A stretch of DNA of 45,466 bases from an uncultured Granulosicoccaceae bacterium (GTDB lineage: Bacteria; Pseudomonadota; Gammaproteobacteria; Granulosicoccales; Granulosicoccaceae), in contig CALJAA010000007.1 of NCBI GenBank assembly GCA_938028465.1, forward strand, positions 1-45,466, written 5' to 3'. Position numbers and translations under genes: made by a program. Position 1 is the first letter of the stretch. Each line of letters starts with the position of its first letter. Positions 26,591-44,379 of this stretch are shown here, piece by piece. The notes beneath the pieces are model-generated. The model saw only the letters and a program-made list of their open reading frames with translations, did not search any database and was not told the origin of the DNA.

Positions 26591-27016
26591 TTATGTACCC
26601 AACAAACTGGCCATAGCAAACAGAAAAGCGCAAAATGTCAGAAAAAGGGAGGCCAATGTAAACGTCACCACTACAAGCGCCGTTCCACGCCTAATAGTGA
26701 AAGGCATATAGATCAAATAGACAAGTTGAGCTATAAACAAGCCGTATATTGTGATTACTATGGGTTTTTGTACGACGCTAAGCAACTTAAAAAATTCTTC
26801 TGCGTCTTTTGCAGTAGTAGGTACGTCCACTTTGTAAAACGGGCCAAATTGCCCGTAGAAAATCAATAGCAATACAATCAAAAAACTAAGAACAATACGC
26901 TTTGTTGGAAGAGATGGCGGGTTTTTCATTCTAGTCCAGCGAAAAACTGCCAATGCAGGAATAACCATTACCGCAACTAGATATAAAAATAAAACAAAAA
27001 AATTCACTACAGCCAA
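26591..27016 (-). CDS. Small four-helix membrane protein, unknown
   Basis: A 141-residue very hydrophobic protein with about four membrane helices and one polar loop of about 40 residues (FGPFYKVDVPTTAKDAEEFF). The frame opens with a TTG at 27016, with a GTG at 27007 as an alternative; GGATGG upstream could serve either. It directly precedes the membrane-anchored EEP gene on the same strand, with 26 bases to the ATG, and probably shares its transcript. No family is recognised. Confidence 0.6.
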   Translation of the reverse strand: MAVVNFFVLFLYLVAVMVIPALAVFRWTRMKNPPSLPTKRIVLSFLIVLLLIFYGQFGPFYKVDVPTTAKDAEEFFKLLSVVQKPIVITIYGLFIAQLVYLIYMPFTIRRGTALVVVTFTLASLFLTFCAFLFAMASLLGT

Positions 27017-27040
27017 CCATCCATATCACCACTGCTCAAA

Positions 27041-28216: not shown

Positions 28217-28274
28217 TCCCACTGAGTTTGCATCGCTATTCGTTTTAGGTCAATTCCGTATCCATAAGCTGTTA

Positions 28275-28949
28275 TCAAAAACGATACCCAACACCCAAGC
28301 CCAATGTTACCGGCTGATAATCGATCCCATTCACCGAGCCATCACCACCCTCTTCGCTTAGATCCAATCCGGTCTGATTGGAATAACGAAATTCGCCAGT
28401 TAAATAGAATCGGCTTGAGAGTTCATAATCAACACCAACCATCGCTTGATATCCGACTGAACCAGAATCAGAAAAAGAACGCTCTCCAGCGGCATCCTCA
28501 CTATCCAAATCCACCTCTTGAAGCCACGTAACGCCACCGCCAACCCAGGTTGACAAGCGACTGCCGCTACTTAGTACGTAGCGACCATTGATATAGAATG
28601 TATTGCTCGCATAGTTTCCACTGGGTAACAACAATCCACCAGCAGTGGTGGCCCTCGAATCATTTGAGCGATATTCCCAACCAAATTCTGATATCCAAGG
28701 TGAGTCCGCGTAGTCATACCTCACACTTAAACCTGCTGTGAACCCCTGATCTACCGCAATACTCGATTTGCCATCATCGATACCATCCGCTCCAACAACA
28801 TCAGCAGATTGATCGCCTAGAACACTAAGGCCAAAATGAGGTACAAGAGACCAGTGATCTCCTGCAGCAATAGCCAATGGGCTTAACAACATGACTGTGC
28901 CGCTGAACGCGAGGGCGGCAAGAAATCGAATTGATTGCCAGTATTTCAT
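28275..28949 (-). CDS. Outer-membrane beta-barrel protein
   Basis: A 224-residue protein with a Sec signal peptide (cut near AIAAGD), alternating beta strands rich in Gly, Tyr and Ser, and a C-terminal strand ending in VGYRF, the signature read by the BAM machinery. AGGAG precedes the ATG. It resembles OmpW/OmpA-barrel-type small porin-like proteins. It is divergent from the LytTR regulator gene at 29194 and may be its target. Confidence 0.85.
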   Translation of the reverse strand: MKYWQSIRFLAALAFSGTVMLLSPLAIAAGDHWSLVPHFGLSVLGDQSADVVGADGIDDGKSSIAVDQGFTAGLSVRYDYADSPWISEFGWEYRSNDSRATTAGGLLLPSGNYASNTFYINGRYVLSSGSRLSTWVGGGVTWLQEVDLDSEDAAGERSFSDSGSVGYQAMVGVDYELSSRFYLTGEFRYSNQTGLDLSEEGGDGSVNGIDYQPVTLGLGVGYRF

Positions 28950-29193
28950 TTTTCTTCTCCTGAGTTATCAAATTGGGTATGTGGATGCTCTTACGCACTA
29001 TTGCAGCCGCTGGCCCACTACCGCCAGTCCGGATACCATCAATGGAGTCGTTACTGCACCAACGGCATTAATTGAAAGCTAGAAGGCAATCCAACCGTTC
29101 GTGTTATTTCTCGACCACTAGTGCTGAAAGGGTTTCTAACACTTGGCTCAGGGTCGTATCATGGGGTCTCAATCATTTCTAAAAGGATGCTCC

Positions 29194-30099
29194 ATGATCG
29201 ATAGCTCCGGAAGAAAAGGGATCCGCGCCAACGGGACTATTCTGGATCTATTACCCGTCAGCCAAGTAATTGGCGTGATCGGAATGCTACTGGTTGCTCT
29301 TTTCACTCTCATCAAGCCAGAGGCCAGTAACGGACTAGCTTTCAAAGCTCGGGCGCTATTTTGGGGGTTGCATGTTGGTTTAGGTTTAACAGCACTCTGG
29401 GTTGCGAGTCGCTGGCTGGCAAGCGGCAAGAGACTACCCAATAGCACACTAGCTGCGATTATCGTGACTGGATGCGCTGGCGCGCTACTAGCCACTCCAG
29501 GCTACCTTGCACTTGATGCTTTATACGCACCGCACATTGTAGATCTTGATCCCGACCCGCCCACTGGTTGGCTACTACTAAGGCTACTAGAAGAAGCAAT
29601 AGAACTAATCCCGTGGTTTCTTGCTACATGGGTACTCATCAATTTGCCAGTACTGCTACCACCTCCCGATTCTTCAATACGCATGGATGATACGGTTAAC
29701 GACCCACCTCCTGACAACAAACCCTTAGCTGTAGAAACCAAGCAAACAGAACACACTTTTTTGCTGTGCCTACCCGGCATTATTGGCACCGATGTAATTG
29801 CAGTAGCAAGCGACCTGCACTACTTAAACGTATGGACGGTAGCAGGCCGAACAACTCTATTAGGCAATTTACGCGATGTTGTTGAAGAACTCGACGAGCT
29901 GGGTATGCAAGTACATCGCTCTCATTGGATTGCCAACTCTCATGTGCGACGTGTTGTGGGTAACGCTAGCAATGCCGCATGCATCATGTCGAACGAATTG
30001 CGAGTGCCTGTCAGCCGCAGACGTTGGAAAGCGGTTAGGGATCAATTTGGACGTGGTGTAATACATGGCGTTGACTCTGAGAGTGAACAGCAAACCTAA
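29194..30099 (+). CDS. Membrane-anchored LytTR transcriptional regulator
   Basis: A 301-residue protein. About four hydrophobic helices fill residues 15-160, a Pro-rich linker follows, and a LytTR DNA-binding domain occupies about 190-290 (VIAVASDLHYLNVWT, LRDVVEEL, VHRSHWIAN). ATG 29194 is chosen because AAAGGA lies 7 bases upstream; starts at 29161 and 29143 lack this. There is no kinase or receiver domain, so signal input is probably through the membrane part. It is divergent from the barrel protein gene at 28275-28949. Confidence 0.82.
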   Translation: MIDSSGRKGIRANGTILDLLPVSQVIGVIGMLLVALFTLIKPEASNGLAFKARALFWGLHVGLGLTALWVASRWLASGKRLPNSTLAAIIVTGCAGALLATPGYLALDALYAPHIVDLDPDPPTGWLLLRLLEEAIELIPWFLATWVLINLPVLLPPPDSSIRMDDTVNDPPPDNKPLAVETKQTEHTFLLCLPGIIGTDVIAVASDLHYLNVWTVAGRTTLLGNLRDVVEELDELGMQVHRSHWIANSHVRRVVGNASNAACIMSNELRVPVSRRRWKAVRDQFGRGVIHGVDSESEQQT

Positions 30100-30283
30100 A
30101 AGAATGAAGCCGCTAGGTATTTCGTGGATACAAAGCGCCGCGCTAAGCACCCCGGAATCCTTCTGAATGATTATTAATATGCATTACATGGGCAAGGGCA
30201 CATTGATGGCTGAAGCTGGATAGGGCTGAACGCAGTTCTCAGTGTTACTGCAAACAGTGTTGCCTTAATGCAATGAACAAACG

Positions 30284-30946
30284 TTAATGAGTGTAAGCGC
30301 CATAAATACCTAGTCCACCTACAATCACTAAGCTTAAGGCCCAAACGATATCAAGATTAAACCAAGTTTTAGATAAGAATTTGAGCCCAAGCCAGAAGTA
30401 GATGATCGTAGCCAGCACACCACCGGCAACCGTCATGGCTGCGGTGTGCGCCAGTGCAACGATAACTGCATTCGACAACCTGCCGGCCATAAGTGATTGC
30501 ACAGCCTGATGGCCAGTATCGTTTGCATCGATTCCGCAAATGCCAAGATAGATAGGCACCAGCATTAACCCAGCGCCATGTGCCATGGCAGCTAAAAAAG
30601 ACCAAAGCCCCAGTTTAGCGGGATGCACTCGTGCTAGAAACTTTGGATGGCGCCGATTGATTAACAGGTAAATGCCCATCAATACAACGATAACTCCCGC
30701 ACCTATTCGTAACTCCTTCTCCCAAATAAACAGTGCGCTCATCAAAGAGAAAGGTAACAGGATGGCCAGCATGGCAATGAGGTGTCCTAGCGCCAACAGC
30801 CCTAGCGCCACTAACAGGCTGGAACGCTTGCCATTCATCAAGCCAGCAGAAACAGCTAATGGCCACCCCATGCCGGGGTTAATGCCGTGATAGACGCCAG
30901 AAAAAATGACGGCCCACCAAAGGGCCGCCTCTGTTGTTAACTCCAT
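30284..30946 (-). CDS. Six-helix membrane protein, unknown
   Basis: A 220-residue inner-membrane protein with about six helices and the conserved-looking motif GVYHGINPGMGW near residue 17 and AHGAGLMLVP in the middle, each with a His inside a helix. This pattern recalls the UreH/NicO-type metal-transporter fold, but the match is loose. It lies 33 bases after the selenium-binding-protein gene on the same strand and is probably co-transcribed, which may hint at metal or sulfur handling. Confidence 0.65.
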   Translation of the reverse strand: MELTTEAALWWAVIFSGVYHGINPGMGWPLAVSAGLMNGKRSSLLVALGLLALGHLIAMLAILLPFSLMSALFIWEKELRIGAGVIVVLMGIYLLINRRHPKFLARVHPAKLGLWSFLAAMAHGAGLMLVPIYLGICGIDANDTGHQAVQSLMAGRLSNAVIVALAHTAAMTVAGGVLATIIYFWLGLKFLSKTWFNLDIVWALSLVIVGGLGIYGAYTH

Positions 30947-30979
30947 ATGCGATGACGAATCGTTACCGTTATTCCAACT

Positions 30980-32380
30980 TTAAACGCTTGGGTAACAGAA
31001 ACTATCAGTTGAACAATCACCACCTTCAAGGCGAATTTGATGACTGCGATAGCCTTTTGGAAAATCGACGTAGAAGTCCTTATCGAGCTCGAACCCGCCA
31101 TTCTCTCCAACACGTGCCATCACCATTTGGCCGCCTTCGTCGTTAGGATAAAATTGATCATCCCACGTTGAGTAGAGTGAGTTAGTCCAATAAACGCGTG
31201 AACCATCTCGACTAATCTCAACCATCTGCGGGCCAAACGCAAAGTCTTTACCATTAGGGTGCTTGGTATCGCTAACAATACCGCCTAACTCGACTTTCCC
31301 TGCGAGCACGGGGTTCATCGGATCAGTAACATCATATTGATGCATTTCACCAATACCCCAACACGCTACGTATAGGTATTTGTCATCAAGACTTAAATCA
31401 ATATCGGTAACCAGTGGAGGAACTGCCTCAAACCCTTTTAATAAATCGGGCAGATCATCAGCACTTGCCGGTTGCGGATCGATCGTGATGGTTTTTTTCG
31501 CTTGCCAAACGCCATCGTCATCACGCCACCATGTGAAGATAGCGCCTTGAAGATTAGTGGTATCAACTACCACACCACAAAAACCGTAAGATTTTTTGGG
31601 ATCGTGCGCCGGCCGTATCTCCAATGCCATCTGATGATTTTCACCTAGATCAATCGTTTGGATATTTTTACGCTTACGTAAATCCCAGAAGTGAATCGAG
31701 TGGCCGTACTTATTACTGAGTAGATCCTCTGCCACGACACCATTCTCAAATTGCGGCGGCAATCCCCACTCAGAGCTCACCATGTAATCTTGCGGCAGGT
31801 TCCACCAAAAATCATAATGCTTGTCTTGCTTGCCTCGATCCATTTCGTATTGACCAATGATCTCAAAGGTTTCGCAATCCATAATAAATATACCTGGCGG
31901 GCCATCGGTGCCGTCTTTACCACCACCACCAAGAGTTGATACGTAAATACCCTCAGGGCCGCAGTGGATAGTATGCGGCCGCGAGTAACCCGTTTTTTCA
32001 AATATTTCTTCTGGTTCAAGAATTTTATGAACCTTCAAATCTAACGGGTCTTTAACATCGATAACGAAAATGCGCGACGAGCGTATGCCCGGAACAATTA
32101 GATAGCGTCGCTCAAGAAACGCATGCCCACTTAAGGGCGACAAAGATGATGAACAAGCATTCCAACCAAAGTGGTGAAACTCGTCGCCTTTGCTATCGAC
32201 GATTAGTTGATGAACAATTTGCCCAAAGGTTTTAGATGAAGAATCGAGATCGACTACAGCGATACCATCCGGTTGAGAACCATCGGGGCTTAACATCACT
32301 GTAAAACCGTAATTTTCTACTGGCGCTTGCATGGCCAGCTTAGCTGTTGCGTGGAACGTTGGATCAGGTCTTAAACTCAT
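30980..32380 (-). CDS. Selenium-binding protein / methanethiol oxidase family
   Basis: A 466-residue SBP56-family seven-bladed propeller protein. Family landmarks are HHFGWNACSS, RPHTIHC, YDFWWNLPQDYMVSSEWG, GHSIHFWDL and QMVEISRDGSRVY. ATG 32380 has GGAGG 5 bases upstream, which decides the start over one ten codons earlier. Bacterial members (MtoX) oxidise methanethiol to formaldehyde, sulfide and hydrogen peroxide and use copper; several His here could bind metal. No signal peptide is seen and the sco and mauG partners known beside some mtoX genes are absent, so activity is inferred from family. Confidence 0.88.
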   Translation of the reverse strand: MSLRPDPTFHATAKLAMQAPVENYGFTVMLSPDGSQPDGIAVVDLDSSSKTFGQIVHQLIVDSKGDEFHHFGWNACSSSLSPLSGHAFLERRYLIVPGIRSSRIFVIDVKDPLDLKVHKILEPEEIFEKTGYSRPHTIHCGPEGIYVSTLGGGGKDGTDGPPGIFIMDCETFEIIGQYEMDRGKQDKHYDFWWNLPQDYMVSSEWGLPPQFENGVVAEDLLSNKYGHSIHFWDLRKRKNIQTIDLGENHQMALEIRPAHDPKKSYGFCGVVVDTTNLQGAIFTWWRDDDGVWQAKKTITIDPQPASADDLPDLLKGFEAVPPLVTDIDLSLDDKYLYVACWGIGEMHQYDVTDPMNPVLAGKVELGGIVSDTKHPNGKDFAFGPQMVEISRDGSRVYWTNSLYSTWDDQFYPNDEGGQMVMARVGENGGFELDKDFYVDFPKGYRSHQIRLEGGDCSTDSFCYPSV

Positions 32381-32555
32381 GCTGCCTCCCAAAAATATGC
32401 TAATTGCCACTCGATACTATCGGATCTATTTCCGATTAGCCAGAGTTCATATCATGGAGTGCGGTTTGCAGCTGTTATCGGTATCGTATAGAGGCCAATG
32501 GAGGGCAGATGAAAAGGAAACTTCCCATCAGGCAAAGGCAGACTATTCCAGAGGT

Positions 32556-32993
32556 TTAGTCTTCAGCGTTACCCGAAAGGCCCAGCAAAATTGCCAAGGC
32601 ATCCTCAGCTCTATCTGCTGGCACAAATAGATGATCATGAAAAAACCCTGAAACGGGATTGACCCCCATACCTTCCTTAGCCAATACCGGGATGATCGCC
32701 GCTAAAAAACCCACTGCATCCAATGCAGAATGAACTTCAAGCGTTATACGGCGACACGGAAAAACGTGCTCGAGCCCGGAAGCGTTTGCATCCGTCTCGG
32801 TTAGGATTAACGTCACCCCTTCCGATTCTCTAAACACCATTAACGCTTTATCAACCTGTTCAGATAACTGCTCGGCGCTAACAGTAGCAAACACATAGGT
32901 GCGCGTATCGAGCTTCGGGCTCATCTTCGCCATTAACGACGCTAAGTCAGTTTCACCCGTACTAAGCGCATTGTTTTTGGAGTTATCAGTCAT
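32556..32993 (-). CDS. ACT-domain-like protein (DUF2241 type)
   Basis: A 145-residue protein with the pattern of DUF2241/ACT-type proteins: RTYVFATV, ITLEVHSALDAVGFLAAI and GFFHDHLFVPADRAEDAL. ATG 32993 is preferred, as the start nine codons earlier would overlap the LysE-type gene. ACT folds often bind amino acids; here it lies just after an amino-acid-exporter-type gene, which would suit a sensor of the same ligand. That link is inference. Confidence 0.8.
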   Translation of the reverse strand: MTDNSKNNALSTGETDLASLMAKMSPKLDTRTYVFATVSAEQLSEQVDKALMVFRESEGVTLILTETDANASGLEHVFPCRRITLEVHSALDAVGFLAAIIPVLAKEGMGVNPVSGFFHDHLFVPADRAEDALAILLGLSGNAED

Positions 32994-33009
32994 AGTGAAA
33001 ATGGTGTGG

Positions 33010-33630
33010 TTAACGAGCAAATGCTGATCGAATTAACCCAAGGCCTGCCAGAGTAAACAACGCAGCAGCTACTCCATCTATACGGCGACGAAATCGGCGA
33101 TAAGCACGCATCATCCCACCGATTGAAAAAATGTAAGAATATAAGGCATTGTTTAAAAAGCCCACCGCGGCACATACCAGCGTAGTGGCTACGACTACTT
33201 GCAAGCCATCATTAGAGTCTATGCCGACAGAAAGCGCTGCCATCCAGGCAATGACCGATTTTGGATTAGATACATTTAATACCAACCCTCGTAAAAACCA
33301 TCTCTTCTCAGTAGGTACAGTTAAAACCTCAGGATTAGCCTGACTAGCAGAACGCGCGGTTTGCAAGGCCAACCAAAGCAAATAAAGGCCGCCCACTATT
33401 TTTAATGCCATTAATAAGTAAACAGAACCTTGGAGTACGGCACCCATGCCGCTGGCTGCAATCAAACCCCAAAACACCAAGCCGAATGACAAACCAAAGC
33501 TATAGATCAAACTGGTTTTACGGCCATGGCTCATGGCGATGGTAGCGTTAGATAGATTAGCAGGGCCAGGCGTGACAGCTACCGCAAAAAAAGCCACTGC
33601 GGACACAGAAAGTGAGATTACGTCAATCAT
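33010..33630 (-). CDS. LysE/RhtB family exporter
   Basis: A 206-residue protein with six hydrophobic helices and the family motif TPGPANLS near residue 20, plus NVSNPKSVIAWMA in the middle. LysE/RhtB proteins export amino acids or their analogues. It is one of three such genes within 3.7 kb. It lies 17 bases before the ACT-type gene and may share its transcript. Confidence 0.9.
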   Translation of the reverse strand: MIDVISLSVSAVAFFAVAVTPGPANLSNATIAMSHGRKTSLIYSFGLSFGLVFWGLIAASGMGAVLQGSVYLLMALKIVGGLYLLWLALQTARSASQANPEVLTVPTEKRWFLRGLVLNVSNPKSVIAWMAALSVGIDSNDGLQVVVATTLVCAAVGFLNNALYSYIFSIGGMMRAYRRFRRRIDGVAAALFTLAGLGLIRSAFAR

Positions 33631-33700
33631 TAGCTATTAATTTACCGGCCAGCTGTAAGGGCGAAGGATTTCGCTTACCTACTTTTATACACTACTGAAT

Positions 33701-34501
33701 TTAGAGCGACAAGCTACCCTTCATATAATCTATAGCTCGCCCAGTTAGCTCGACCCTATCCCCTAACAAACGACAACCCAAGGTACCGGACCTTGCCGAT
33801 ATTTGCCGCGCACGCAGTTCTGTTTTATTCAGCTGGCCTGACCAATAGGGAGTAAGCAAACAATGGGCTGAACCAGTTACTGGATCCTCCGGTATGCCAA
33901 AAGCTGGCGCAAAATAGCGAGAAACAAAATCGAAGTCTTTAGCAGCAGCTGTAGCGATAACCCCTCGACTACCTAGGGCACCAAACTGAGATTCGTTTGG
34001 CGTAAGTGCTGCAACTTCCTCGGCACTATCAAACACAGCCACGATGTCGAATTGATCGGGCGAGTAATCCCCCACCCAAATTGATTTAGGAGTGCTTCCA
34101 AGAGCTGCTGCAACCTCACTTAACTTATCGTGCTTACGAATAGCGATTGCTGGAAACTCCATCGCTAAACTACCGTCATTTTTACGCTCTACAATTAATT
34201 CACCAGAAAGCCTCGTTACAAACGTAATGGACTCACCCTGATAGCCCAAATGTTTGTACAAAACATGCGCCGCAGCTAACGTTGCATGACCACACAACGC
34301 AACTTCAAATGATGGAGTGAACCAGCGAAGCTCCCACTTGGCGCCGTTAGCCACCAAATACGCCGTCTCAGCCAAATTGTTTTCAGTAGCAATAGATTGC
34401 AGGAGCGAATCATCCGGCCAATTATCAAACTGCACAACGGCTGCAGGGTTACCTTCGAATAATTTATCCGCGAACGCGTCTACTTGATAGAGATCTGTCA
34501 T
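33701..34501 (-). CDS. PhzF family isomerase/epimerase-like protein
   Basis: A 266-residue PhzF-family protein with GNPAAVV, AETAY (catalytic Glu region), VALCGHATLA and PEDPVTGSAH. ATG 34501 gives the usual start MTDLYQVDAF; an upstream TTG at 34525 is rejected although AAAAGG lies between them. It is distinct in sequence from the PhzF at 24720-25559. It lies between two LysE-type exporter genes on the same strand. Substrate unknown. Confidence 0.9.
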   Translation of the reverse strand: MTDLYQVDAFADKLFEGNPAAVVQFDNWPDDSLLQSIATENNLAETAYLVANGAKWELRWFTPSFEVALCGHATLAAAHVLYKHLGYQGESITFVTRLSGELIVERKNDGSLAMEFPAIAIRKHDKLSEVAAALGSTPKSIWVGDYSPDQFDIVAVFDSAEEVAALTPNESQFGALGSRGVIATAAAKDFDFVSRYFAPAFGIPEDPVTGSAHCLLTPYWSGQLNKTELRARQISARSGTLGCRLLGDRVELTGRAIDYMKGSLSL

Positions 34502-34638
34502 AGCCAAGAACGCCTTTTCATGCAACCAGAGTTAAATTCTAATTAATCATAAAAACGCGCTACTACTTAAGCGCCATAGACCGTGGCTAGTTAGAGCCAC
34601 GAAGATTTACGGTAATTCCATAGAAACTGTCGTCTTCA

Positions 34639-35250
34639 TCACCTATCAGCCAGCGCAAGCCTCAGCCCAAGCGCTCCGAATGCGGTTGCAAAAACGCGCT
34701 TCATCCAAACCATTACACGAGGGGATTCAACAATGTACTTACGCGTAGCCGATGCAAATGCACCATAGACAACGAACACGATGAATGTCATCACCATAAA
34801 AACAACCGCAAGATAAACCAAATTTGCAAGCGAGCTTTCTACTCCTGCTGGTACAAACTGAGGAAGGAACGCTAAGAAGAACAGAGATAGTTTTGGATTA
34901 AATACGTTCAACAATGTACCGTTAACTGCGATTCGCAAGTAAGATTGCTCAGTTTTCTCTTCGTTTATATTCAATAGGCTCTTGTCACCCAACATAGACC
35001 AAGCCATGTAGAGCAGGTAAGCAACACCTAAATACTTAACAACGATAAAGGCAAGCGCACTGGTGTGAAAAATCGCCGCTAAGCCAACGATACTGGCAAC
35101 AGCCGCCGGCACAATACCAAAGGTACAACCCAATGCTGCTGCAACGCTAGGCCAGAAACCTCGCCCAAGCCCTACAGCTAACGTGTAAAGCACTCCCGTT
35201 CCAGGCAGCAAAACCACGACAAGCGATGTTAGTAAAAACTCGATAGACAT
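34639..35250 (-). CDS. LysE/RhtB family exporter
   Basis: A 203-residue six-helix protein of the LysE/RhtB family with LPGTGVLYTLAVGLGRG near the N-terminus, a variant of the usual PGP motif, and NVFNPKLSLFFLAFLPQF in the middle. It probably exports an amino acid or homoserine-lactone-like compound. No clear ribosome-binding site precedes the ATG. Confidence 0.9.
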   Translation of the reverse strand: MSIEFLLTSLVVVLLPGTGVLYTLAVGLGRGFWPSVAAALGCTFGIVPAAVASIVGLAAIFHTSALAFIVVKYLGVAYLLYMAWSMLGDKSLLNINEEKTEQSYLRIAVNGTLLNVFNPKLSLFFLAFLPQFVPAGVESSLANLVYLAVVFMVMTFIVFVVYGAFASATRKYIVESPRVMVWMKRVFATAFGALGLRLALADR

Positions 35251-35405
35251 ATTTTTGATAACTCAACTTAATACACTCAAACTAGGCTATCAGCAACGTC
35301 GTCGATGTGCACGTGATCTGTTGGACATTTATATGTATCAATACAGCCAAAGGTAGGTGCATCATTGGCGCTTGGCCAGCGCAGTAGCCTTACAAATCAT
35401 CCCAG

Positions 35406-35903
35406 CTAGCGCCAGAACTCCCACCATCGCTTTGATTTTCTGCCAAAGTCTTCAGCGTCAAAACCGTAAAAAGTGCTCATGATTTCGGATTCTGAAATAT
35501 CAGCGCCTTCGCTTAACGCTTTATTAGCTGCGACAACCTCCGCGCTCTTAGCAACCACTGCCTCAAACACCGATACCGTAATTTCTTCGGTATAGCCCTT
35601 TTGTAGCAAACTAATACCCAGGGCAAGTGCGGTGGTAAACAATTGCTGGCCTGCCACCGGCACATGAAAAGTCGACCCGTCATTTGCGCGAATCTGAAAA
35701 TCAACCCCAAACTTTTCAACACCCATATTTTTAAGTACCGCCCAAGAGAAAGCGGATTGAACAAATAGGTACAACTTTCGCGAATCGGCCGGTGACAGCC
35801 CATACGCCACTAAGTCGGCGATAATGTCCGCTTCGTTTGAATTATTTTCTTCAAACAGCTGAGCCGTTCTGGTGACGAGTGCTAGTGCTTCTTCTTGGTT
35901 CAT
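35406..35903 (-). CDS. Unknown soluble protein
   Basis: A 165-residue acidic, largely helical protein (start MNQEEALALVTRTAQLF) with no signal peptide and an unusual basic, Trp-rich end (KRWWEFWR). The longer frame to 35969 adds 22 basic residues and has no better ribosome-binding site; the ATG at 35903 is favoured by composition. No family is recognised. It lies between two LysE-type exporters on the same strand. Confidence 0.6.
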   Translation of the reverse strand: MNQEEALALVTRTAQLFEENNSNEADIIADLVAYGLSPADSRKLYLFVQSAFSWAVLKNMGVEKFGVDFQIRANDGSTFHVPVAGQQLFTTALALGISLLQKGYTEEITVSVFEAVVAKSAEVVAANKALSEGADISESEIMSTFYGFDAEDFGRKSKRWWEFWR

Positions 35904-36055
35904 GTTTGTTTTTGGTTTCAATTTCAAAAAAAGTGCTTGGTAACTAATCCCTTCAATTAATCGCAACACTTACGGGCTAACATTACCGAATTTTGCTAGC
36001 ACTGCACTAATCTAAATAAACAGCTAATGATTACAGCAAAGCGGTTCAGCAATAT

Positions 36056-36691
36056 CTACGATCGATCCGTCAGCAGCTTAATACCCATCGCGCAAAAGAA
36101 TGCACCCAATGCTGCTTCTACGTAACGCCGAGCTCGCGTGTACAACGCAACCATTGGCTTCGTCGAGAATGCGAGTGCATACATAATATGACCGCCCACT
36201 GATAGCAAGGTTGCGCCAAGGACGATACTACCGCCTACCCACATTGGCGCACCAGCATGAACACCGATAGACACAATCGCCAACGTTGCCAGCGCTGCTT
36301 TGGGGTTGGTCATTTGCACGGTAAGGCCTCTTCTAAAATAGGCTGCATCACTTTGCAAGCTAACCACTGTTGTATTGACATCTTTAGCAGAGGCCGCCGA
36401 GCGTAACGCTTTATAGCCAAGCCACAATAAGTAAAAGCCGCCCAGTACTTTAAGCGTAAACATTACAATCGCGTATTTGGATATCACGGCGGTGAACCCT
36501 AAAACGGCAAGCGACACCCAAAGGCAAGTACCGAAGCCAACACCCAGCGCCAACGCAATACCTTGCTTACGCCCCACCCCCATGGATGTGCCAATTACGG
36601 CCATTATGTTGGGGCCCGGGCTCATCAATGCCAGCATCACTGCTGAGAGTGAAAGAAGCACACCAGGGAGAAACTGTTGGATTTCTGACAC
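36056..36691 (-). CDS. LysE/RhtB family exporter
   Basis: A 211-residue six-helix LysE/RhtB protein with SPGPNIMAVIG near residue 24 and QMTNPKAALATLA in the middle. The start is placed at GTG 36691 because AGGA lies about 8 bases upstream; the frame is open to 36748 but the extra 19 residues are polar and unlike the family. The largest of the three exporters in this stretch. Confidence 0.85.
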   Translation of the reverse strand: MSEIQQFLPGVLLSLSAVMLALMSPGPNIMAVIGTSMGVGRKQGIALALGVGFGTCLWVSLAVLGFTAVISKYAIVMFTLKVLGGFYLLWLGYKALRSAASAKDVNTTVVSLQSDAAYFRRGLTVQMTNPKAALATLAIVSIGVHAGAPMWVGGSIVLGATLLSVGGHIMYALAFSTKPMVALYTRARRYVEAALGAFFCAMGIKLLTDRS

Positions 36692-37029
36692 GAGAATCGT
36701 TCCTAAGGGCTGGTTGCCACTATAGCTATAAATAGGCTGTAGAGCCAATCGCTCAGGCTACACGTTACATTAACGGGAGTGAGCGACCCTACTCTTCAGT
36801 AGATATCGCCTACTTTATGCGCAATAAACTCAGCAGCAATCATGACAGGCTAAATCAGAAGCGAAAGAAGTCGGCTTATTGGATGCAACCTACTGGGATG
36901 TAAAATCGCTGTTTTGGCTGATGATCAGGCACAGCGAACCCAAATAGGTTCAAGACAGGGTGCCTGTGCTGTTAAAAGAATTAAACAAAGAAATGTCGAC
37001 AGCAAAATGATGTCTCGCAAACCCGCTAT
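36692..37029. other. Intergenic region with no recognised feature
   Basis: This 338-base gap lies between two minus-strand genes. I looked for an integron attC site here, since the gene at 37030-37536 is next to an integron integrase, and found no RYYYAAC/GTTRRRY pair; the best single match, GTTAAAA at 36971, misses one base. No terminator or small gene is evident. Confidence 0.4.
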
Positions 37030-37536
37030 TCAATCGCGAGCGTGCAGATAGATTAATACTTTTCCTCGGACATTACTTTCAACTTCTCGATCCAGAGTGG
37101 CACCTAGCTTTTCAGCAAGCCGGATCGATGGGTCGTTATCAACCGAAATACAACTATAAACACTAGTCCATCCTAAGGTTTCATACGCATAACTTCTAGC
37201 ACGAACAGCGGCTTCGGCTGCAATACCAAGGCCCTGCTTTTGCTCAACAATGCCCCAGGTGATTTCTCGTTCCGGCCACCCTTCTGGAAACCATAAACCC
37301 ACTATTCCACAAAAATCACCAGTGGATTTTTCCTCTACCGCCCAAGCACCATAACCTCTTATCACCCAATGGCCCATCATGGCTGCAGCTGCTCTCCAAG
37401 CCGAAGAGCGATCAAGAGGACCTCCGTAGTATCTTGTTAAGTCCGAGCCATAAAATTGCGCATAGGGCTCGAAGTCTGTTTCCTCCCTAAATTCACGCAT
37501 AATTAATCGTTCAGTTTCAATTACGGGAATTTGCAA
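37030..37536 (-). CDS. GNAT acetyltransferase, RimJ/RimL type
   Basis: A 168-residue N-acetyltransferase with the RimJ/RimL pattern: IETERLIMREF at the start, CGIVGLWFPEGWPEREITWGI (seen as CGIVGLWFPEG and EREITWGI), the acetyl-CoA loop QGLGIAAEA and the end motif NDPSIRLAEKLGA. The start is set at TTG 37536 because AAAGGAGAG at 37542-37550 sits at ideal distance and the family begins just there; a GTG at 37575 would add 13 basic residues. It is divergent from the integron integrase, in the position and direction of a first cassette, but no attC follows it. Confidence 0.85.
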   Translation of the reverse strand: MQIPVIETERLIMREFREETDFEPYAQFYGSDLTRYYGGPLDRSSAWRAAAAMMGHWVIRGYGAWAVEEKSTGDFCGIVGLWFPEGWPEREITWGIVEQKQGLGIAAEAAVRARSYAYETLGWTSVYSCISVDNDPSIRLAEKLGATLDREVESNVRGKVLIYLHARD

Positions 37537-37878
37537 AACCCCTCTCCTTTTAGCAACTGGAATGCGATAACTCACATTTGTGTAAATATAATTTTATAAC
37601 TGTACAGGAGCCAGCTGCACGCCCTACCATTTTTATCCGCCCCTTTCACAGAAATTTAGTAAATAATTTTTTATAAACGGCAAAAAAGAATTTAATAGTC
37701 GAAAAAGTTGTGAACACTGCGTAATTTTTTTATTTGCCCAATAATATCTTCTATACTTTCCTGACCAAGCAATATCGATTGCTTGCCACTCGTACCAATC
37801 ACCCATGATCAACATGTCACATTGATCAACTTGCAAACTGTATAAATATACAGTACTCTAAATTCATTAACTCAATGG
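37537..37878. other. AT-rich divergent region upstream of the integron integrase
   Basis: This 342-base gap is clearly richer in A and T than the flanking genes. It contains the LexA box at 37838-37853 and would be where attI normally lies. No GTTRRRY core was found on either strand in it. A short CTGTACAG palindrome is at 37600-37607. No other gene is seen. Confidence 0.5.
37838..37853 (+). promoter_or_regulatory. LexA (SOS) box upstream of intI
   Basis: CTGTATAAATATACAG is a perfect 7-2-7 palindrome and matches the CTGT-N8-ACAG consensus for LexA in gammaproteobacteria. It ends 25 bases before the integrase ATG, so LexA would cover the promoter. SOS control of integron integrases is established in other bacteria. 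Confidence 0.88.
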
Positions 37879-38883
37879 ATGAAGAGAATGGGACACTACC
37901 CCCGTTTATTTGACCAAGTCAGAAGCGCAACGCGTGAGCACCGCCTAAGCTATCGTGCTGAACAGGCTTATGTGATGTGGGTGCAACAGTTCATTCACTT
38001 TCATGATTGCGCTCACCCGCAAGATCTCGGGCCGCTCGATGTCGAAGCATTTCTAAGCCATTTAGCATTAGATCGCAACGTTGCGCCAAGCACCCAAAGC
38101 CAAGCGCTTAGTGCCATCGTGTTTTTGTATACCTACGTACAGTTATCGCCCTTGGGTAACCTAGATGACCTGACAAAAGTAAAAGCAACTTCCACAACAA
38201 ATAAGCAACGCAATCCAGTCACGTTCTCAGCAGACGATGCAACAACAGTTTTGTCTCTACTTAAAAATCCGTATCGGTTAATCGCGTCATTAATGTACAG
38301 CTCTGGCTTACGGTTAGTGGAGGCTTTACGTTTACGAGTGAAAGATATCGACTTTCATAAAGGCACTATCACTATCAGAGATGGCAAGTGCGGTAAGGAT
38401 CGAGTAGTCCCTCTATCAGACAGCGCACTTCTGCCATTAAAAAAACAAATTGGCCTTGCCCGTTGCATACACGATGAGGATCTAGCCGATGGCTATGGCC
38501 GCACTGTGCTACCAAACTCCCTAGCACGAAAATATGGTTTAGCGAGCAGTGAATTCGGTTGGCAACTGGTATTCCCAAGTGGCAGCCGCAGCTTAGAGGC
38601 TCGCTCCGGTGTCGTTAGCCGCTATCACCTACCAGAGCAGTCAGTACAGAGGGCAGTGCGCTCAGCCATTATAGAAGTCTGTAATCAAAGCGACTATCGG
38701 GGCAACATTGATAAGCAGGCTAGCTGCCATACCTTCCGCCATACGTTTGCTATTCAATCTCTACAACGCGGTGTAGATATCCATACCGTTAAAGAGCAGC
38801 TTGGCCATAGCGACATTAGTGCAATGCATGCCTATACCCACTCAACTCCAAATAACGATACCCATCCGCTTAAAACAGCTTAA
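37879..38883 (+). CDS. intI: Integron integrase IntI (tyrosine recombinase)
   Basis: A 334-residue tyrosine recombinase with an intact catalytic set: Arg145 in SGLRLVEAL, Lys173 in GKDRV, His284 and Arg287 in HTFRH, His310 in GHSD and nucleophile Tyr319 in AYTHS. The segment LARKYGLASSEFGWQLVFPS (about 213-233), between the lysine and the HxxR box, corresponds to the extra patch that separates IntI from XerC/XerD, and RSGVVSRYHLPEQSVQRAV also follows IntI. The size is usual for IntI. It has a LexA box upstream. It appears intact, yet no attI or attC site could be recognised near it, so it may be a cassette-less integron or have degenerate sites. Confidence 0.92.
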   Translation: MKRMGHYPRLFDQVRSATREHRLSYRAEQAYVMWVQQFIHFHDCAHPQDLGPLDVEAFLSHLALDRNVAPSTQSQALSAIVFLYTYVQLSPLGNLDDLTKVKATSTTNKQRNPVTFSADDATTVLSLLKNPYRLIASLMYSSGLRLVEALRLRVKDIDFHKGTITIRDGKCGKDRVVPLSDSALLPLKKQIGLARCIHDEDLADGYGRTVLPNSLARKYGLASSEFGWQLVFPSGSRSLEARSGVVSRYHLPEQSVQRAVRSAIIEVCNQSDYRGNIDKQASCHTFRHTFAIQSLQRGVDIHTVKEQLGHSDISAMHAYTHSTPNNDTHPLKTA

Positions 38884-38912: not shown

Positions 38913-40457
38913 CTAACAGCGGCTACCAAAGCTATTCCTCGTACGGAAAAAAGTAACGGTTTCATAATCAAGGATCGTATTATCATCTGAAACCGCACCA
39001 ACACTAACAAAGTTGCACCCACCATTGCTAAATGTGCTGCTCGTATAAGACAAAGCGCGAGTAGTCGCCACAGGCTCGTTGTTTACTCTTATTTCATATC
39101 CTTGCAGCCCGTTTGATCCTGTCTCTGACCCTTCCCACGAAATAATAATTTCAGTAGCTAAGCTGGCCACTCTTACATTGCTAACGGTGTGCACACCCTC
39201 GGTCAAGCTACCAGCAACGATCAAGTTATCATCAGTCGAAACACCAGTATCTAAGTCTATTATCACCGTGTTCGAAAATTGCCCTACATTGCCGTTGGTA
39301 TCCACCAATCGGATTTTGTAGGCCACCGGCGATTCTGGCTTTACGCTGGTATCAAAATAACTAAAATTTGCATCGGTTGTTTCAATCAGTACATCATCAA
39401 GATAAATCTCTACCAAACTATTTGGAATTTGTCGGATAGGTGGCCAGAATAATTCAACCGCATTACGATCATACGCTCTAGCCGTTAGTGCTAACTTACT
39501 TGATGTAATCGCCTCATTACCAACCGCCTCTGCGTTTCCGCCAGGCACCACGGGAAGTGATTCGGCCGCTATACATTCAATCGCCCCATCTACAGTTACA
39601 CCACAAAAATTTGAGTTACTCAGATAAAAAAGCTTGCCCGACTCTAGCGATGTAAATCGTGTATCCGACATATAACGACTCTCATCCACTGAACCGTCAA
39701 AACGAAATGAACAATCGAGTTGTTGATCTTGATTTAAACCACATATGGCGGCGTTACTCACCACTAGATCGGTATAAGGCCCGTTAGTGGGCGGCGCCAT
39801 AGTCTCTGTCGGTAAATACCCAACTCTCCAGCATTGAATATCGCCCGTGTCCTGTAAACCACAACCGGTCAGGCCGGATACATCTAAATCAATAAAATTG
39901 CCAGCCAAACTACTGGTGTCGCTAATTCTAGAATCAGTCGACCAGCAATTAAGGTTGCCGCTAAGTTGTATGCCGCATGTTGCATTGCCATTCGCTGACA
40001 AGGTTAAGAACCCCGTGCCGTCATCACCCAACCCATTATTGGGCACTTGGGTTTGTTCATTAGTATCTAGCCCCCAACACCAAGCTCGATTATTGACATC
40101 AATCGCGCAGGTGTGACTAGTACCCGCAAAGATATCAACTAGCGGCTGGTCAATTTGCGGAATAGTTTGTTCTTGATAAAAATTAAGACCACCCCAACAC
40201 ACAGCCGCGCCATCGAGGGTGATACCGCAAGTATGCTGATGCCCAGCAGAGATGGCTTTAAGCGCAGGTAAATCATCAGGAGAGTCGTAACGCCTTGAGT
40301 GCGTCTGCGTTCTACAATCAACGCTACCGTCAATGCTAAGGCCACATAAATGAGAGAGGCCAACGGCCACTTCGGTAAATGGCTGCGCAAGCGAGGGTGC
40401 ACTAAATGCGGCAAAAAGGCCGAAGTAAAACAAAGAGATAGTATGTCGAATTTTCAT
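38913..40457 (-). CDS. Secreted RCC1-like repeat protein with fibronectin-III-like domains
   Basis: A 514-residue exported protein with a signal peptide cut near PSLAQ. ATG 40457 has AAGGAC upstream. Seven RCC1/BNR-like repeats span about residues 30-290, each with a Cys pair in the pattern CG-x8-C or C(A/G)I-x6-CW (for example HTCGITLDGAAVCWG). Two fibronectin-III-like domains follow (about 310-400 and 425-510). The paired cysteines suggest disulfides outside the cytoplasm. It probably works as a surface or secreted binding protein; no enzyme motif is seen. It converges on intI, with 29 bases between the stops. Confidence 0.78.
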   Translation of the reverse strand: MKIRHTISLFYFGLFAAFSAPSLAQPFTEVAVGLSHLCGLSIDGSVDCRTQTHSRRYDSPDDLPALKAISAGHQHTCGITLDGAAVCWGGLNFYQEQTIPQIDQPLVDIFAGTSHTCAIDVNNRAWCWGLDTNEQTQVPNNGLGDDGTGFLTLSANGNATCGIQLSGNLNCWSTDSRISDTSSLAGNFIDLDVSGLTGCGLQDTGDIQCWRVGYLPTETMAPPTNGPYTDLVVSNAAICGLNQDQQLDCSFRFDGSVDESRYMSDTRFTSLESGKLFYLSNSNFCGVTVDGAIECIAAESLPVVPGGNAEAVGNEAITSSKLALTARAYDRNAVELFWPPIRQIPNSLVEIYLDDVLIETTDANFSYFDTSVKPESPVAYKIRLVDTNGNVGQFSNTVIIDLDTGVSTDDNLIVAGSLTEGVHTVSNVRVASLATEIIISWEGSETGSNGLQGYEIRVNNEPVATTRALSYTSSTFSNGGCNFVSVGAVSDDNTILDYETVTFFRTRNSFGSRC

Positions 40458-40729
40458 AATTGTCCTTATCATGGCTGACAGCGTAATTAGAGCATAAGTC
40501 GCATAATTGATGCCATGTTCGTATTACCAGTATTATGATTAATCGCAAACGGCCTGATGCAACCCGCTTGAATGCTTTGGGATAAAAGTCTAACCCGCTG
40601 TTCCTGCGACATGAGATACTTATTAACCAGTGTGAAGGCAAGGGCCTGCAATATTCCATGTACGCCTTAGCGCACTGACTGCCTCCGTAGCACGTGAGGT
40701 AATCGCTTTAACTAATCAGGATATTCCAG

Positions 40730-43700
40730 ATGGTAAACGGCTTATTTGCCTACATTCTGAAGTACAGCAAGCGTCAGCAAATTGTGCTGACCTTGATGAC
40801 AATCGGGTCGTTTCCGTTTTACTACCTTAGCTTAGACCTACCCAAAACAATTATTAATGATGCGATCAGCGGCACTAAATTTCCGGTTGATGCATCCATT
40901 GATTTATTAGGCTACAGCTTTAGTGTCGGCACATTTGCACAAATTCCATATCTACTACTTCTGTGCTTTGCCTTCTTGCTGTTGGTACTCATCAATAGCG
41001 GCTTTAAATTGGTTATCAATATCTATCGTGGTGTGCTTGGCGAACGCATGCTCAGGCGCATGCGCTTACAGCTCATCGATTGCATCATGATGTTTCCATT
41101 GGCACGGTTTCGCAACACTAGCCAAGGCGAATTGGTGTCTATGGTTAATCAGGAAACAGAACCCTTGGGCGGCTTCATTGGCGAAGCGATTTCTTTACCT
41201 CTGTACCAAGGTGGCTTGCTCTTAACAATTTTGACGTTTATGTTTGTTCAGGATTGGAAATTAGGTCTTGCCGCAATTGCGCTTTATCCGGTTCAAGCGT
41301 GGTTGATCCCTAAATTACAGCGACAGGTGAATTTGCTTAATCAGCAAAGAACCATTCGGATGCGTAAATTAGCCGAAAACCTTGGCGAGGTAGTCGCTGG
41401 TATTAATGAAGTCCATATCAACGACAACAGAAACTTCTTTAAAGATCATTTTTCAAAATTGCTAGGTGCAATTTTTAACATCCGGGTACAGATATACAAA
41501 AAGAAGTTTCTTATAAAGTTTTTGAATAATTCTTTTGCACAACTAACACCGTTTCTCTTTTTTCTTATTGGTGGTTTGTTAGTCATCCGTGGGGAGCTAA
41601 CGATAGGCGCCTTAGTCGCGGCAGTGGCGGCATACAAAGATCTTTCACCCCCATGGAAGGAGCTACTGGGCTGGTATCAAAGCCAAGCGGACGCTAGATT
41701 AAAATATTCCATTTTGACCGAACAGTTTCAGCTTGATCAAAGCCAATCGCAAATACAAGACTCACTCTCACCTAAGTGGCTTGATGAACAACAAACGCTG
41801 CCGATAGTAGCTAAGAACATTAGCCTGAAACGCTCCGATGGCATTAATGAAGTTGATAATGTTTCCTTCACTATTGATCGCGGTGATTGGGTTAGCCTAG
41901 TAGGCACCGGCAATAGTGGCAAAAACGGTTTAGCCCAAATTATTGCAGGCTTAGTTAACCCAACTAATGGAAAGGTACTCATTGCACAACATGACGCAAT
42001 GCAAATACCCAAAACAACCATCGGCCGTGCAATCGGCTATGTAGGCCATGACTCCTACCTTTTCGCCGCATCGATACGCGACAATCTGCTACTGAGCCTA
42101 AAATACCAACCGCAGGAAAACATTCTCGACAATGCCTCTGACGACGAAGCCATACACTTTGATAATTGGTTACAAGAGGCACGCTTGTCCGGTAACAGCG
42201 AAGTGGATCCGAAAGCAAATTGGGTAGACCACCAAAACGCAGGTGCAGCCAATGCTGAGCAGTTAACACAATGCATCGGGTCAATCTTACGGACTGTTGG
42301 TGCTGAGGATGATTTAGTTCACTACGCACTTGCACGGTCGATTAATACTGAAGACTATCCTCAGCTAACCAGTAGAATTATCAAGGCTCGAGAATTATTT
42401 AAAGAAGAAGTCAAACTTCAAGGTCTCGACCCAATTGTCGAGTTTCTTGATCCATCTCAATACAATGAAAACACTTCCCTAGCAGAAAATATCCTGTTTG
42501 GTTCATCAAGCCTAATAGGCCTTTCTGCCGAGAGGTTAACGGAACACCCAACATTACGGCCGCTTCTACGCGAGTATGATCTCGCTGACTCCTTAGATGA
42601 AACCGCCATCAGTACGGCGACCACCATGGTTGAGCTTTTCTCTGATCTGCCACAAGGTCATGAATTTTTTGAACGGTACAGCTTTCTAAATGCTGACGAC
42701 TTAATACAACTTAAACGCATCTTAGGTTTACTCCAAAAGGCAACCAAAATTGATGAGTTGGAAACCAACGATAAACTGTTGCTACGCTCAATCCCCTATC
42801 GCTTAATCAGTGGCCGTCATCGTGTGGGTTCGCTTGGAGATAGTGAAAAACAAAACATAGTAAAACTACGCAAGTCTTTTGCTGAAAGCCTAGACAGTGA
42901 AACCCGTGACCAAATTAAGTTCTTTTCACCTGACAGTTACAACGCGTTTATGTCTGTTGGTGAAAATATTATATTTGGTCGAATCGTTTACGGGCGCCTG
43001 GGCGCAGAAGAAAAAGTCTACGGTGTCATTCTCGATGTGCTAAAGCGCTTAGATTTACTCTCACCAATATTAGAAATTGGCCTTTCAGCTCCCGCAGGCT
43101 TGGCAGGCAGCCTCCTTCCAGTTTCACAACAGCAAAAACTCGTACTTGCCCGCAGCTTAATTAAACAACCAAAGATGCTCGTTATAAACGAAGGGCTTAG
43201 CGCATTAGATAACGACGAAACGACAACTATTTTGACAAATTTAAAACGGGACTACCCGCAATTAAGTTTACTGTGGGTTGATAACCAAGCAAGGATTTCA
43301 ACTTTATTTGATCGCTACGCTTACTTGCAAGCAGGCAAACTGAGCAAAATAGAAACGACTACATTACAAAGCGAGCACCTCGAAGTAGGCTCTAAACCTA
43401 ACGAAAAAACCGTAAGGCTTGCAAATTCAATCGGCGAGGATGAGAAACTCACCCTACTGAATAGCATCCCGATGTTCCGGCTACTCGACAAGCCACAACT
43501 TATCTTATTAGCCAGTAATTGCGAGGCTGTGAACGTATCGAAAGGAGAACGCTTATTCCATCAGGGCGATCCTGGAGATGCTTTGTTTATTATTGTTGAA
43601 GGCACGGCTGGCATTATGATTTCAAACGGTGTAGTTGAGCAAAAAGTACGAGAATGCGGCGCTAACGAGGTTATAGGCGAACTCGCCTTACTATCAGATA

Positions 43701-43876
43701 AGCCACGATCAGCTTCTGTTGATGCCATAACTGATTTAGTGATCTTATATCTAAGCCGTGATGTATTTATTGAGATGCTGAGATCAGATGGGGAAATCGG
43801 ATATCAAATACTTCAGGTGGTTGTAAACCGATTTGTTGATTCCAATTTAAAATTGGCGAAACTAATAGAGTCATAA
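40730..43876 (+). CDS. ABC-exporter-like protein with degenerate ATPase and C-terminal cNMP-binding domain
   Basis: A 1048-residue fusion. Residues 15-330 form an exporter-type membrane domain with about six helices. The ATPase domain starts near 355 but its motifs are altered: Walker A GTGNSGKN (392-399) has Asn for Ser/Thr, the Q-loop has His440, the signature is LPVSQ (796-800), Walker B is VINE with Asn820 for Asp, and the H-loop position reads VDN (Asn852). The acidic Glu821 and D-loop SALD remain. About 340 extra residues lie between Q-loop and signature, with a repeated ENI-FG motif (448-456, 583-591, 742-750). A cyclic-nucleotide-binding domain fills about 906-1040, with GELALLSDKPRSA at 983-995 intact. 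ATP hydrolysis looks doubtful; a cNMP-gated or regulatory membrane protein is inferred. Confidence 0.8.
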   Translation: MVNGLFAYILKYSKRQQIVLTLMTIGSFPFYYLSLDLPKTIINDAISGTKFPVDASIDLLGYSFSVGTFAQIPYLLLLCFAFLLLVLINSGFKLVINIYRGVLGERMLRRMRLQLIDCIMMFPLARFRNTSQGELVSMVNQETEPLGGFIGEAISLPLYQGGLLLTILTFMFVQDWKLGLAAIALYPVQAWLIPKLQRQVNLLNQQRTIRMRKLAENLGEVVAGINEVHINDNRNFFKDHFSKLLGAIFNIRVQIYKKKFLIKFLNNSFAQLTPFLFFLIGGLLVIRGELTIGALVAAVAAYKDLSPPWKELLGWYQSQADARLKYSILTEQFQLDQSQSQIQDSLSPKWLDEQQTLPIVAKNISLKRSDGINEVDNVSFTIDRGDWVSLVGTGNSGKNGLAQIIAGLVNPTNGKVLIAQHDAMQIPKTTIGRAIGYVGHDSYLFAASIRDNLLLSLKYQPQENILDNASDDEAIHFDNWLQEARLSGNSEVDPKANWVDHQNAGAANAEQLTQCIGSILRTVGAEDDLVHYALARSINTEDYPQLTSRIIKARELFKEEVKLQGLDPIVEFLDPSQYNENTSLAENILFGSSSLIGLSAERLTEHPTLRPLLREYDLADSLDETAISTATTMVELFSDLPQGHEFFERYSFLNADDLIQLKRILGLLQKATKIDELETNDKLLLRSIPYRLISGRHRVGSLGDSEKQNIVKLRKSFAESLDSETRDQIKFFSPDSYNAFMSVGENIIFGRIVYGRLGAEEKVYGVILDVLKRLDLLSPILEIGLSAPAGLAGSLLPVSQQQKLVLARSLIKQPKMLVINEGLSALDNDETTTILTNLKRDYPQLSLLWVDNQARISTLFDRYAYLQAGKLSKIETTTLQSEHLEVGSKPNEKTVRLANSIGEDEKLTLLNSIPMFRLLDKPQLILLASNCEAVNVSKGERLFHQGDPGDALFIIVEGTAGIMISNGVVEQKVRECGANEVIGELALLSDKPRSASVDAITDLVILYLSRDVFIEMLRSDGEIGYQILQVVVNRFVDSNLKLAKLIES

Positions 43877-43920: not shown

Positions 43921-44379
43921 ATGTCCATTGAAGATGAATTTGAACTTCTTAGTCGGCTCGAACTATTTGAGAATCTCGACCCGATACAGCTAAAGAGATT
44001 GATATTCGTTAGCCAGCGCTATCAACTGCAAGCTGGCGAATATTTATTTCGGCAAGGCGATGCTATGGGAAGCGTGTTTGGCATCGTTAAAGGTGAATTT
44101 TCAGTTATTTTGGAATCATCACAAGGTGATATCGTCGCCGCACATCAAAAACCAGGCGATTTAGTGGGGGAAATGGCAGCCATTAGCGGTGCACCACGTA
44201 ATGCATCCATTCGGGCAGACACTGATTGCGAAGTAATCGGTTTTGAAAAAGATTTATTCATCAGCACTGTGGTCAATCACCCACCCACCGCTTTAAAAAT
44301 GATGAGGCTTTTAGCTGAGCGATTAGAAATTCAAAATAAACAACTGGCACTGATTTCCCAATCTCAGCATCTTGATTAA
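43921..44379 (+). CDS. Stand-alone cyclic-nucleotide-binding domain protein
   Basis: A 152-residue Crp-type sensor domain with no DNA-binding helix-turn-helix. The phosphate-binding cassette VGEMAAISGAPRNASI, with the Glu and Arg that contact a cyclic nucleotide, is intact. The beta roll starts with LSRLELFENLDPIQLKRL, similar to the end domain of the preceding ABC-like protein, from which it may have split. It begins 44 bases after that gene on the same strand, so they probably form an operon and may interact. The ligand (cAMP, cGMP or other) is not shown. Confidence 0.85.
   Translation: MSIEDEFELLSRLELFENLDPIQLKRLIFVSQRYQLQAGEYLFRQGDAMGSVFGIVKGEFSVILESSQGDIVAAHQKPGDLVGEMAAISGAPRNASIRADTDCEVIGFEKDLFISTVVNHPPTALKMMRLLAERLEIQNKQLALISQSQHLD

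Follow-up and report, generated by a model that had tools for sequence, protein, structure and literature searches.

The window analysed here, a stretch of 45,466 nucleotides from an uncultured Granulosicoccaceae bacterium (CALJAA010000007.1, which is contig C7 in a draft assembly 4.1 Mb in size and ~89% complete), encodes a 1048-residue protein in which the membrane domain of an ATP-binding cassette (ABC) exporter is joined to a nucleotide-binding domain (NBD) that has lost most of its adenosine triphosphate (ATP) site motifs, and to a C-terminal cyclic nucleotide monophosphate (cNMP) binding domain. Judged by comparison of sequences, the protein belongs to a widespread and maintained pseudo-ATPase family of proteobacterial membrane proteins and is not a product of decay, since the loss of motifs is common to its orthologues and to the wider family, under purifying selection. 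It belongs with the ABC exporters by fold and, judged by motif, stands outside the class of functional ATPases. The family is apparently undescribed; no description of it was recognized in searches of the open PubMed Central literature, subscription papers being outside that coverage. Known degenerate ABC proteins mostly retain one working ATP site. Here, most of the ATP-site motifs are lost in a single half-transporter chain, within a large family whose membrane domain is strongly selected, which makes the idea of a motorless ABC exporter fold directly testable. The findings also suggest a system of cyclase, cNMP receptor, and glycosyltransferase in alphaproteobacteria, Rhizobium and Sinorhizobium among them, and in marine bacteria.

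Motif loss in a maintained protein family

Membership of the exporter fold is seen in the ABC_membrane domain identified by Pfam (residues 75-298, 1e-22) and in a complete ABC NBD fold in the structural model; structural matches of the protein include TM287/288, TmrAB, and TAP. The Pfam ABC_tran match covers the first part of the NBD alone (residues 376-482, 1.5e-14), and one further match, besides ABC_membrane, ABC_tran, and cNMP_binding, was below threshold. No ion-channel family is among these matches, which gives no support to the cyclic-nucleotide-gated channel suggested in the first-pass annotation. The best NCBIfam model is NHLM_micro_ABC1, at 146 bits against a cut-off of 853.

The sequences expected of a functional ATPase are replaced throughout the NBD. 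The Walker A motif GxxGxGK[ST] reads GTGNSGKN, with Asn at position 399, the signature LSGGQ reads LPVSQ, and the Q-loop Gln, Walker B Asp, and H-loop His are H440, N820, and N852. The first-pass annotation had listed these five changes in a protein with an intact frame, membrane domain, and cNMP phosphate cassette, and in this it was accurate, as the open reading frame (ORF) is uninterrupted and the cassette is GELALLSDKPRSAS. Its statement that nearly every ATPase motif was substituted needs qualifying, as Lys398 and Glu821 are kept, and its picture of an exporter fold with altered motifs left out that the NBD is also split by an insert of ~300 residues (about 461-760).

A set of 125 ORFs found by BLAST in family loci was collected and four identical ones were dropped, leaving 121 aligned members that were scored at seven key residues: the Walker A Lys and Ser/Thr, the Q-loop Gln, the first signature Gly, the Walker B Asp and Glu, and the H-loop His. 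No member retains all seven; five are kept in one member, four in 9, three in 24, two in 35, one in 15, and none in 37, although the most distant sequences are placed only approximately in the alignment columns. The first signature Gly survives in 4 of 121. In the branch of the window protein (12 members, itself included), Lys is kept in 12, Ser/Thr in 2, Glu in 11, and the D-loop Asp in 10, while the Q-loop Gln, signature Gly, Walker B Asp, and H-loop His are canonical in 0/12 each. The replacements are themselves conserved in the branch: His440 in 12/12, Val798 in 11/12, Asn820 in 10/12, and Asn852 in 8/12. The check proposed earlier, conservation of the changes among homologues, shows the canonical residue lost throughout the branch at four positions and is less firm at Walker A, where GKS occurs in 2/12, including the closest orthologue, L002.

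Subfamilies B (16 members) and C (seven members) have none of the seven residues, and the remaining 86 members are intermediate (Lys 48, Ser/Thr 19, Gln 16, Gly 4, Asp 15, Glu 49, His 22). Since distant relatives retain up to five of the seven, the loss is graded. A second set of 29 phylum-sample members, picked by their insert and not by their motifs, and partly from the same or near species as the first (e.g. L155, L044), includes 15 with no key residue and none with more than four. Among 20 ordinary exporters, hand-picked as controls from the weaker matches of the search for relatives, GK[ST], DE, and the H-loop His are present in 20/20, LSGGQ in 19 with VSGGQ in the other, and a crude Q-loop pattern matched 18. 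The family-wide recurrence of the substitutions, the intact motifs in these exporters, and the low rates of amino acid change described below indicate that the substitutions are beyond chance.

Where measurable in the window's branch, ratios of nonsynonymous to synonymous change (dN/dS, Nei-Gojobori) are 0.034-0.155 in every region of the pairs L005/L007, L005/L008, and L042/L012, and again in four regions of two further pairs. Synonymous sites are saturated in three of the six regions of L001/L002, among them the whole gene, in five of the six of L004/L041, and throughout L001/L003. In L001/L002, the proportions of differing sites are 0.05-0.12 (nonsynonymous) and 0.68-0.84 (synonymous). In the three pairs that allowed its measurement, the membrane domain is the region with the lowest dN/dS (0.034, 0.039, and 0.045). 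A decaying allele or a sequencing error would account for altered motifs, and branch homologues with canonical motifs had been named in advance as the sign of decay. All 12 lack the canonical residue at the Q-loop, the first signature Gly position, the Walker B Asp position, and the H-loop, the frame is intact, and the 11 orthologues, at 59-83% identity, mostly share the same changes at low dN/dS, so that this explanation is already contradicted and has a negligible chance of being correct. The view that the motifs were lost together in a protein taking on a new role is supported by the same data.

The 11 orthologues are of the same genus and came from 57 genomes (own genome included), which also yielded more distant homologues at 30-38% identity, two of them within the window's own genome. 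One paralogue there (L021, 3708-6803 of contig C28) is a member of subfamily B in which both the cassette pattern of the cNMP domain and the motifs of the ATP site have been lost; it adjoins a gene that by eye is MscS-like, with two GT28-like genes a few kb away. A profile of the full protein matched 4/274 class-sample genomes at 1e-60 (own genome counted). By record titles, the best 80 of 389 confirmed loci from a scan of genome contigs are mostly from Alphaproteobacteria, with some from Gamma- and Betaproteobacteria. Family matches occur in 278 plasmid records, mainly of Rhizobium (144) and Sinorhizobium (80), for example L184 and L185; annotated plasmid records name the gene an ABC transporter permease, ATP-binding protein, or transmembrane-domain protein. 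In a quick maximum-likelihood tree, for which 118 rows were thinned to 91 and the NBD and cNMP columns left out, the window's branch forms a single clade (SH-aLRT 100), and the distribution of fused and unfused cNMP domains needs at least three changes.

Modules, gene context, and possible function

A conserved insert of ~297 residues splits the NBD between the Q-loop and the signature. Profile alignment with hhalign shows that it carries two additional copies of the Q-loop/helical module, and the helix of module 2 is similar to the signature helix. The window's copy matches no Pfam family; an insert profile matched 31/398 phylum-sample genomes at 1e-10 (own genome counted). The Walker A Ser/Thr, Q-loop Gln, and Walker B Asp positions coordinate Mg2+. 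Changes at these positions, in the signature, and at the H-loop, together with the two additional modules between Q-loop and signature, mean that a composite ATP site could not be built in the normal way, and the roles of the lost positions suggest that the protein would not hydrolyse ATP.

A link to cyclic nucleotides is found in 97/121 members, through a fused domain or a following cNMP-type gene: 57 are unfused with a cNMP-type gene at most 600 bp downstream on the same strand, 29 are fused only, and 11 have both. All of these 11 belong to the window's branch. The count places the twelfth member of the branch, L009, in the fused-only group, but an overlapping cNMP ORF is seen at its locus, L192. 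The small cNMP gene follows the pseudo-ABC gene in the window and in 10/10 orthologue loci (10 of the 11 orthologues were examined). The pattern GE[LIMVF]..R.A[ST], which we take to represent the phosphate-binding cassette, was used to score the domains, and it is present in 12/12 fused domains of the branch, 11/13 other fused domains, and 26/37 separate proteins.

Neighbouring genes were compared in the 88 loci that reach 9 kb (the 33 that do not were left out), with hidden Markov models (HMMs) built from these same neighbourhoods. Pfam identified representatives of the neighbour clusters as GT4-type glycosyltransferases (two clusters), GT28 C-terminal domain proteins (two), a class III cyclase, and DUF3095, and others as histidine phosphatase, SAM methyltransferases, an oligopeptide-type importer, a metallo-beta-lactamase-fold protein, and GNAT, among others. 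One of the four glycosyltransferase families is present in 60 loci, a cNMP match in 79 (fused included), the cyclase cluster or DUF3095 in 20, and the importer, by one of its HMMs, in 15. The HMM of one GT28 family matches 50/88 loci; for rough comparison, a query from that family matches at two places in the whole 4.1 Mb genome to which the window belongs. On Rhizobium leguminosarum pRLN2, a cyclase (PF00211, 28.2 bits against a cut-off of 21.9), a peptide importer, three glycosyltransferases, the family gene, and a cNMP gene all run in one direction, and a Sinorhizobium plasmid locus closely resembles this one, its annotation showing one glycosyltransferase. A class III cyclase, confirmed by Pfam in each case, lies ~2.5 kb or nearer to the small cNMP gene in 6/10 orthologue loci; three of these also have GNAT, deacetylase-like, and glycosyltransferase genes, and one is cut by a contig end. 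These associations point to a glycan pathway under cyclic-nucleotide control.

Some neighbours were recorded separately. A DUF3095-type protein sits directly beside the class III cyclase in L190 (4427-5635, by HMM) and L193 (12765-13973, Pfam-confirmed), and the N-terminus of a relative of this protein looks cyclase-like by eye. The deacetylase identity of clusters 7/14 was judged by eye (WWRDDDA...QHGyaHxNHAp); two members gave nothing in Pfam or a sub-threshold DUF2334 match (0.034), and one chance match in PDB. Clusters 20, 21, 24, and 37 look like antisense ORFs of GC-rich genes and were not used.

Our tentative proposal, held at slightly below an even chance, is that the protein acts as a non-hydrolysing, cyclic-nucleotide-controlled membrane component of a glycan or glycolipid pathway, probably as a gate or flippase. 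The class III cyclase would make a cyclic nucleotide, which would bind the protein's own cNMP domain, the adjacent small cNMP protein, or both. The bound nucleotide may then substitute for the ATP cycle as a conformational switch, allowing the protein to gate or flip a lipid-linked glycan, the product of the GT4/GT28 enzymes that many of the loci encode. A more far-reaching version, which we consider doubtful, is a class of motor-replaced transporters, in which the helical subdomain of the NBD was triplicated, ATP chemistry was discarded, and a dedicated cyclase supplies the cyclic nucleotide that drives the conformational cycle, or the gate, by which the lipid-linked glycan passes through the ABC-exporter membrane domain.

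The same motif loss, together with an enlarged and conserved helical surface, could instead describe a cNMP-switched membrane scaffold that transports nothing and recruits or activates cytosolic glycosyltransferases, using the extra helical modules for docking. A scaffold was among the roles named in the first-pass annotation. The neighbours are mostly soluble enzymes, judged by family, in keeping with this idea. Against it, the lowest dN/dS in the three measurable pairs is in the membrane domain, suggesting that the translocation path works, and any docking partner is putative. Of the proteins encoded at these loci, it is the family protein that, going by family names, recurs as a multi-pass inner-membrane protein, and for this reason we favour a gate or flippase and regard the scaffold as the somewhat unlikely alternative. 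The regulatory half of a heteromeric exporter, as the first-pass annotation had also suggested, with its canonical partner encoded elsewhere, would fit the structural matches to TM287/288, TmrAB, and TAP, and the heteromer with a single degenerate site is a familiar arrangement. The neighbourhoods lend it no support, as no second ORF bearing an exporter transmembrane domain was found in the 121 loci, to which the search was confined and whose flanks vary and are often short. Moreover, the chain's own signature is lost, so the Walker site of a canonical mate would still lack a signature, and we consider this role very improbable.

Several observations weigh against a non-hydrolysing component under cyclic-nucleotide control. 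No fused or adjacent cNMP module was found in 24/121 members, and downstream room is plainly short in three of these only (L058, L034, L111). The cassette pattern is lost in subfamily B (0/15), which has a paralogue in the same genome, and 11/37 separate cNMP proteins fail its strict form. No glycosyltransferase is seen at 28/88 loci, the window copy has neither a glycosyltransferase nor a cyclase gene beside it before the contig end, and 4/10 orthologue loci (L186, the closest, L188, L189, and L191) have no confirmed cyclase or glycosyltransferase in reach, L188 giving a single weak match to the cyclase model. The glycan substrate is itself a guess from these neighbours. Lys398 and Glu821 are retained, GKS is kept by L002 and by L006/L041, and the fused Thalassospira relatives L063, L057, and L091 keep GKS and DE in proteins without the Q-loop Gln, signature, or H-loop His; nucleotide binding or a weak ATPase is therefore conceivable. 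These Thalassospira proteins are useful intermediates for the order of motif loss.

Another explanation is that the protein is still an exporter using ATP, with non-canonical motifs, either because Lys398 and Glu821 are enough or because one of the extra helical modules provides a substitute signature. Retention of Lys (12/12), Glu (11/12), and the D-loop Asp (10/12) in the branch and the signature-like helix of module 2 agree with it. Against it stands the joint loss of Ser/Thr (10/12) and of the Gln, Walker B Asp, signature Gly, and H-loop His (12/12 each), and Lys is also lost in subfamilies B and C (0/23), so that ATP use is not a requirement of the family. We regard such an exporter as unlikely.

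Parts of the window

The positions of these elements and of nearby genes are collected in the table. To the left of the integron integrase is a run of minus-strand genes (GNAT, LysE, PhzF-like, and ACT). A strict scan left of the integrase gave no attC-like sites and no direct repeats of at least 30 bases were found at 27000-38000; this gene possibly encodes an integrase without cassettes. Rfam gave no match anywhere in the window.

Table 1. Elements of the pseudo-ABC gene and neighbouring features in the window.
Feature	Position	Strand	Details
Integron integrase	37879..38883	+	TIGR02249, 325 bits (cut-off 265)
RCC1-repeat protein	38913..40472	-	PF13540; between integrase and pseudo-ABC gene
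Pseudo-ABC exporter with C-terminal cNMP domain	40730..43876	+	1048 residues, ATG start, uninterrupted frame
ABC-exporter (type IV) transmembrane domain	40730..41764	+	About residues 1-345
Walker A remnant GTGNSGKNG	41903..41929	+	Residues 392-400; Ser/Thr to N399, Lys398 retained
Q-loop Gln position, His440	42047..42049	+	Motif YVGHD; His in 12/12 branch members
NBD insert	42110..43009	+	Modelled residues 461-760; mostly helical, internal duplication
Second Q-loop-like segment	42434..42502	+	Residues 569-591, IVEFLDPSQYNENTSLAENILFG; hhalign
Third Q-loop-like segment	42914..42979	+	Residues 729-750, IKFFSPDSYNAFMSVGENIIFG; hhalign
Signature remnant LPVSQ, replacing LSGGQ	43115..43129	+	Residues 796-800; alignment
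Walker B remnant MLVINE	43175..43192	+	Residues 816-821; Asp to N820, Glu821 retained
H-loop His position, Asn852	43283..43285	+	Motif WVDN; alignment
cNMP-binding domain	43529..43789	+	Residues 934-1020; PF00027, 3.4e-19; cassette GELALLSDKPRSAS intact
Separate cNMP-binding protein	43921..44379	+	152 residues; PF00027, 2.2e-19; directly downstream of pseudo-ABC gene
ORF of 246 residues	44401..45141	-	Convergent with small cNMP gene; no NCBIfam family, sub-threshold Pfam match only

Relation to known systems

The protein resembles type IV (ABCB/MsbA-like) exporters in its membrane domain, NBD fold, and domain order, and differs from them in lacking ATP-site motifs and in carrying the NBD insert and the fused cNMP domain. 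MsbA and PglK are glycolipid flippases that share this fold, and glycosyltransferase genes lie near many of the family loci. For the split member L104, the best NCBIfam model is MsbA, at 189 bits, far below the cut-off of 602. MsbA and PglK differ in being active ATPases and in having neither cNMP modules nor the insert. In degeneracy, the nearest systems are the heterodimeric exporters TM287/288, TAP, and TmrAB, which also have degenerate ATP-site motifs in an exporter NBD, one site being degenerate and the other catalytic. Here, in contrast, a single chain has lost Walker, signature, and H-loop motifs, and the search of 121 loci gave no partner next to it.

The nearest in design is HetC of Nostoc PCC 7120, which is likewise reported to be an ABC exporter with a cNMP-type domain, one that is required for function (PMC10986499). 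In HetC this domain is N-terminal and accompanied by a C39 peptidase, and an ATPase residue is required (PMC10986499). In the window protein the cNMP domain is C-terminal (934-1020), and Pfam gave no peptidase family at E up to 1. The HetC paper reports no significant thermal protection of the domain by cyclic AMP, and protection by ppGpp, which HetC binds; a cNMP-type domain can evidently prefer a ligand other than cyclic AMP (PMC10986499).
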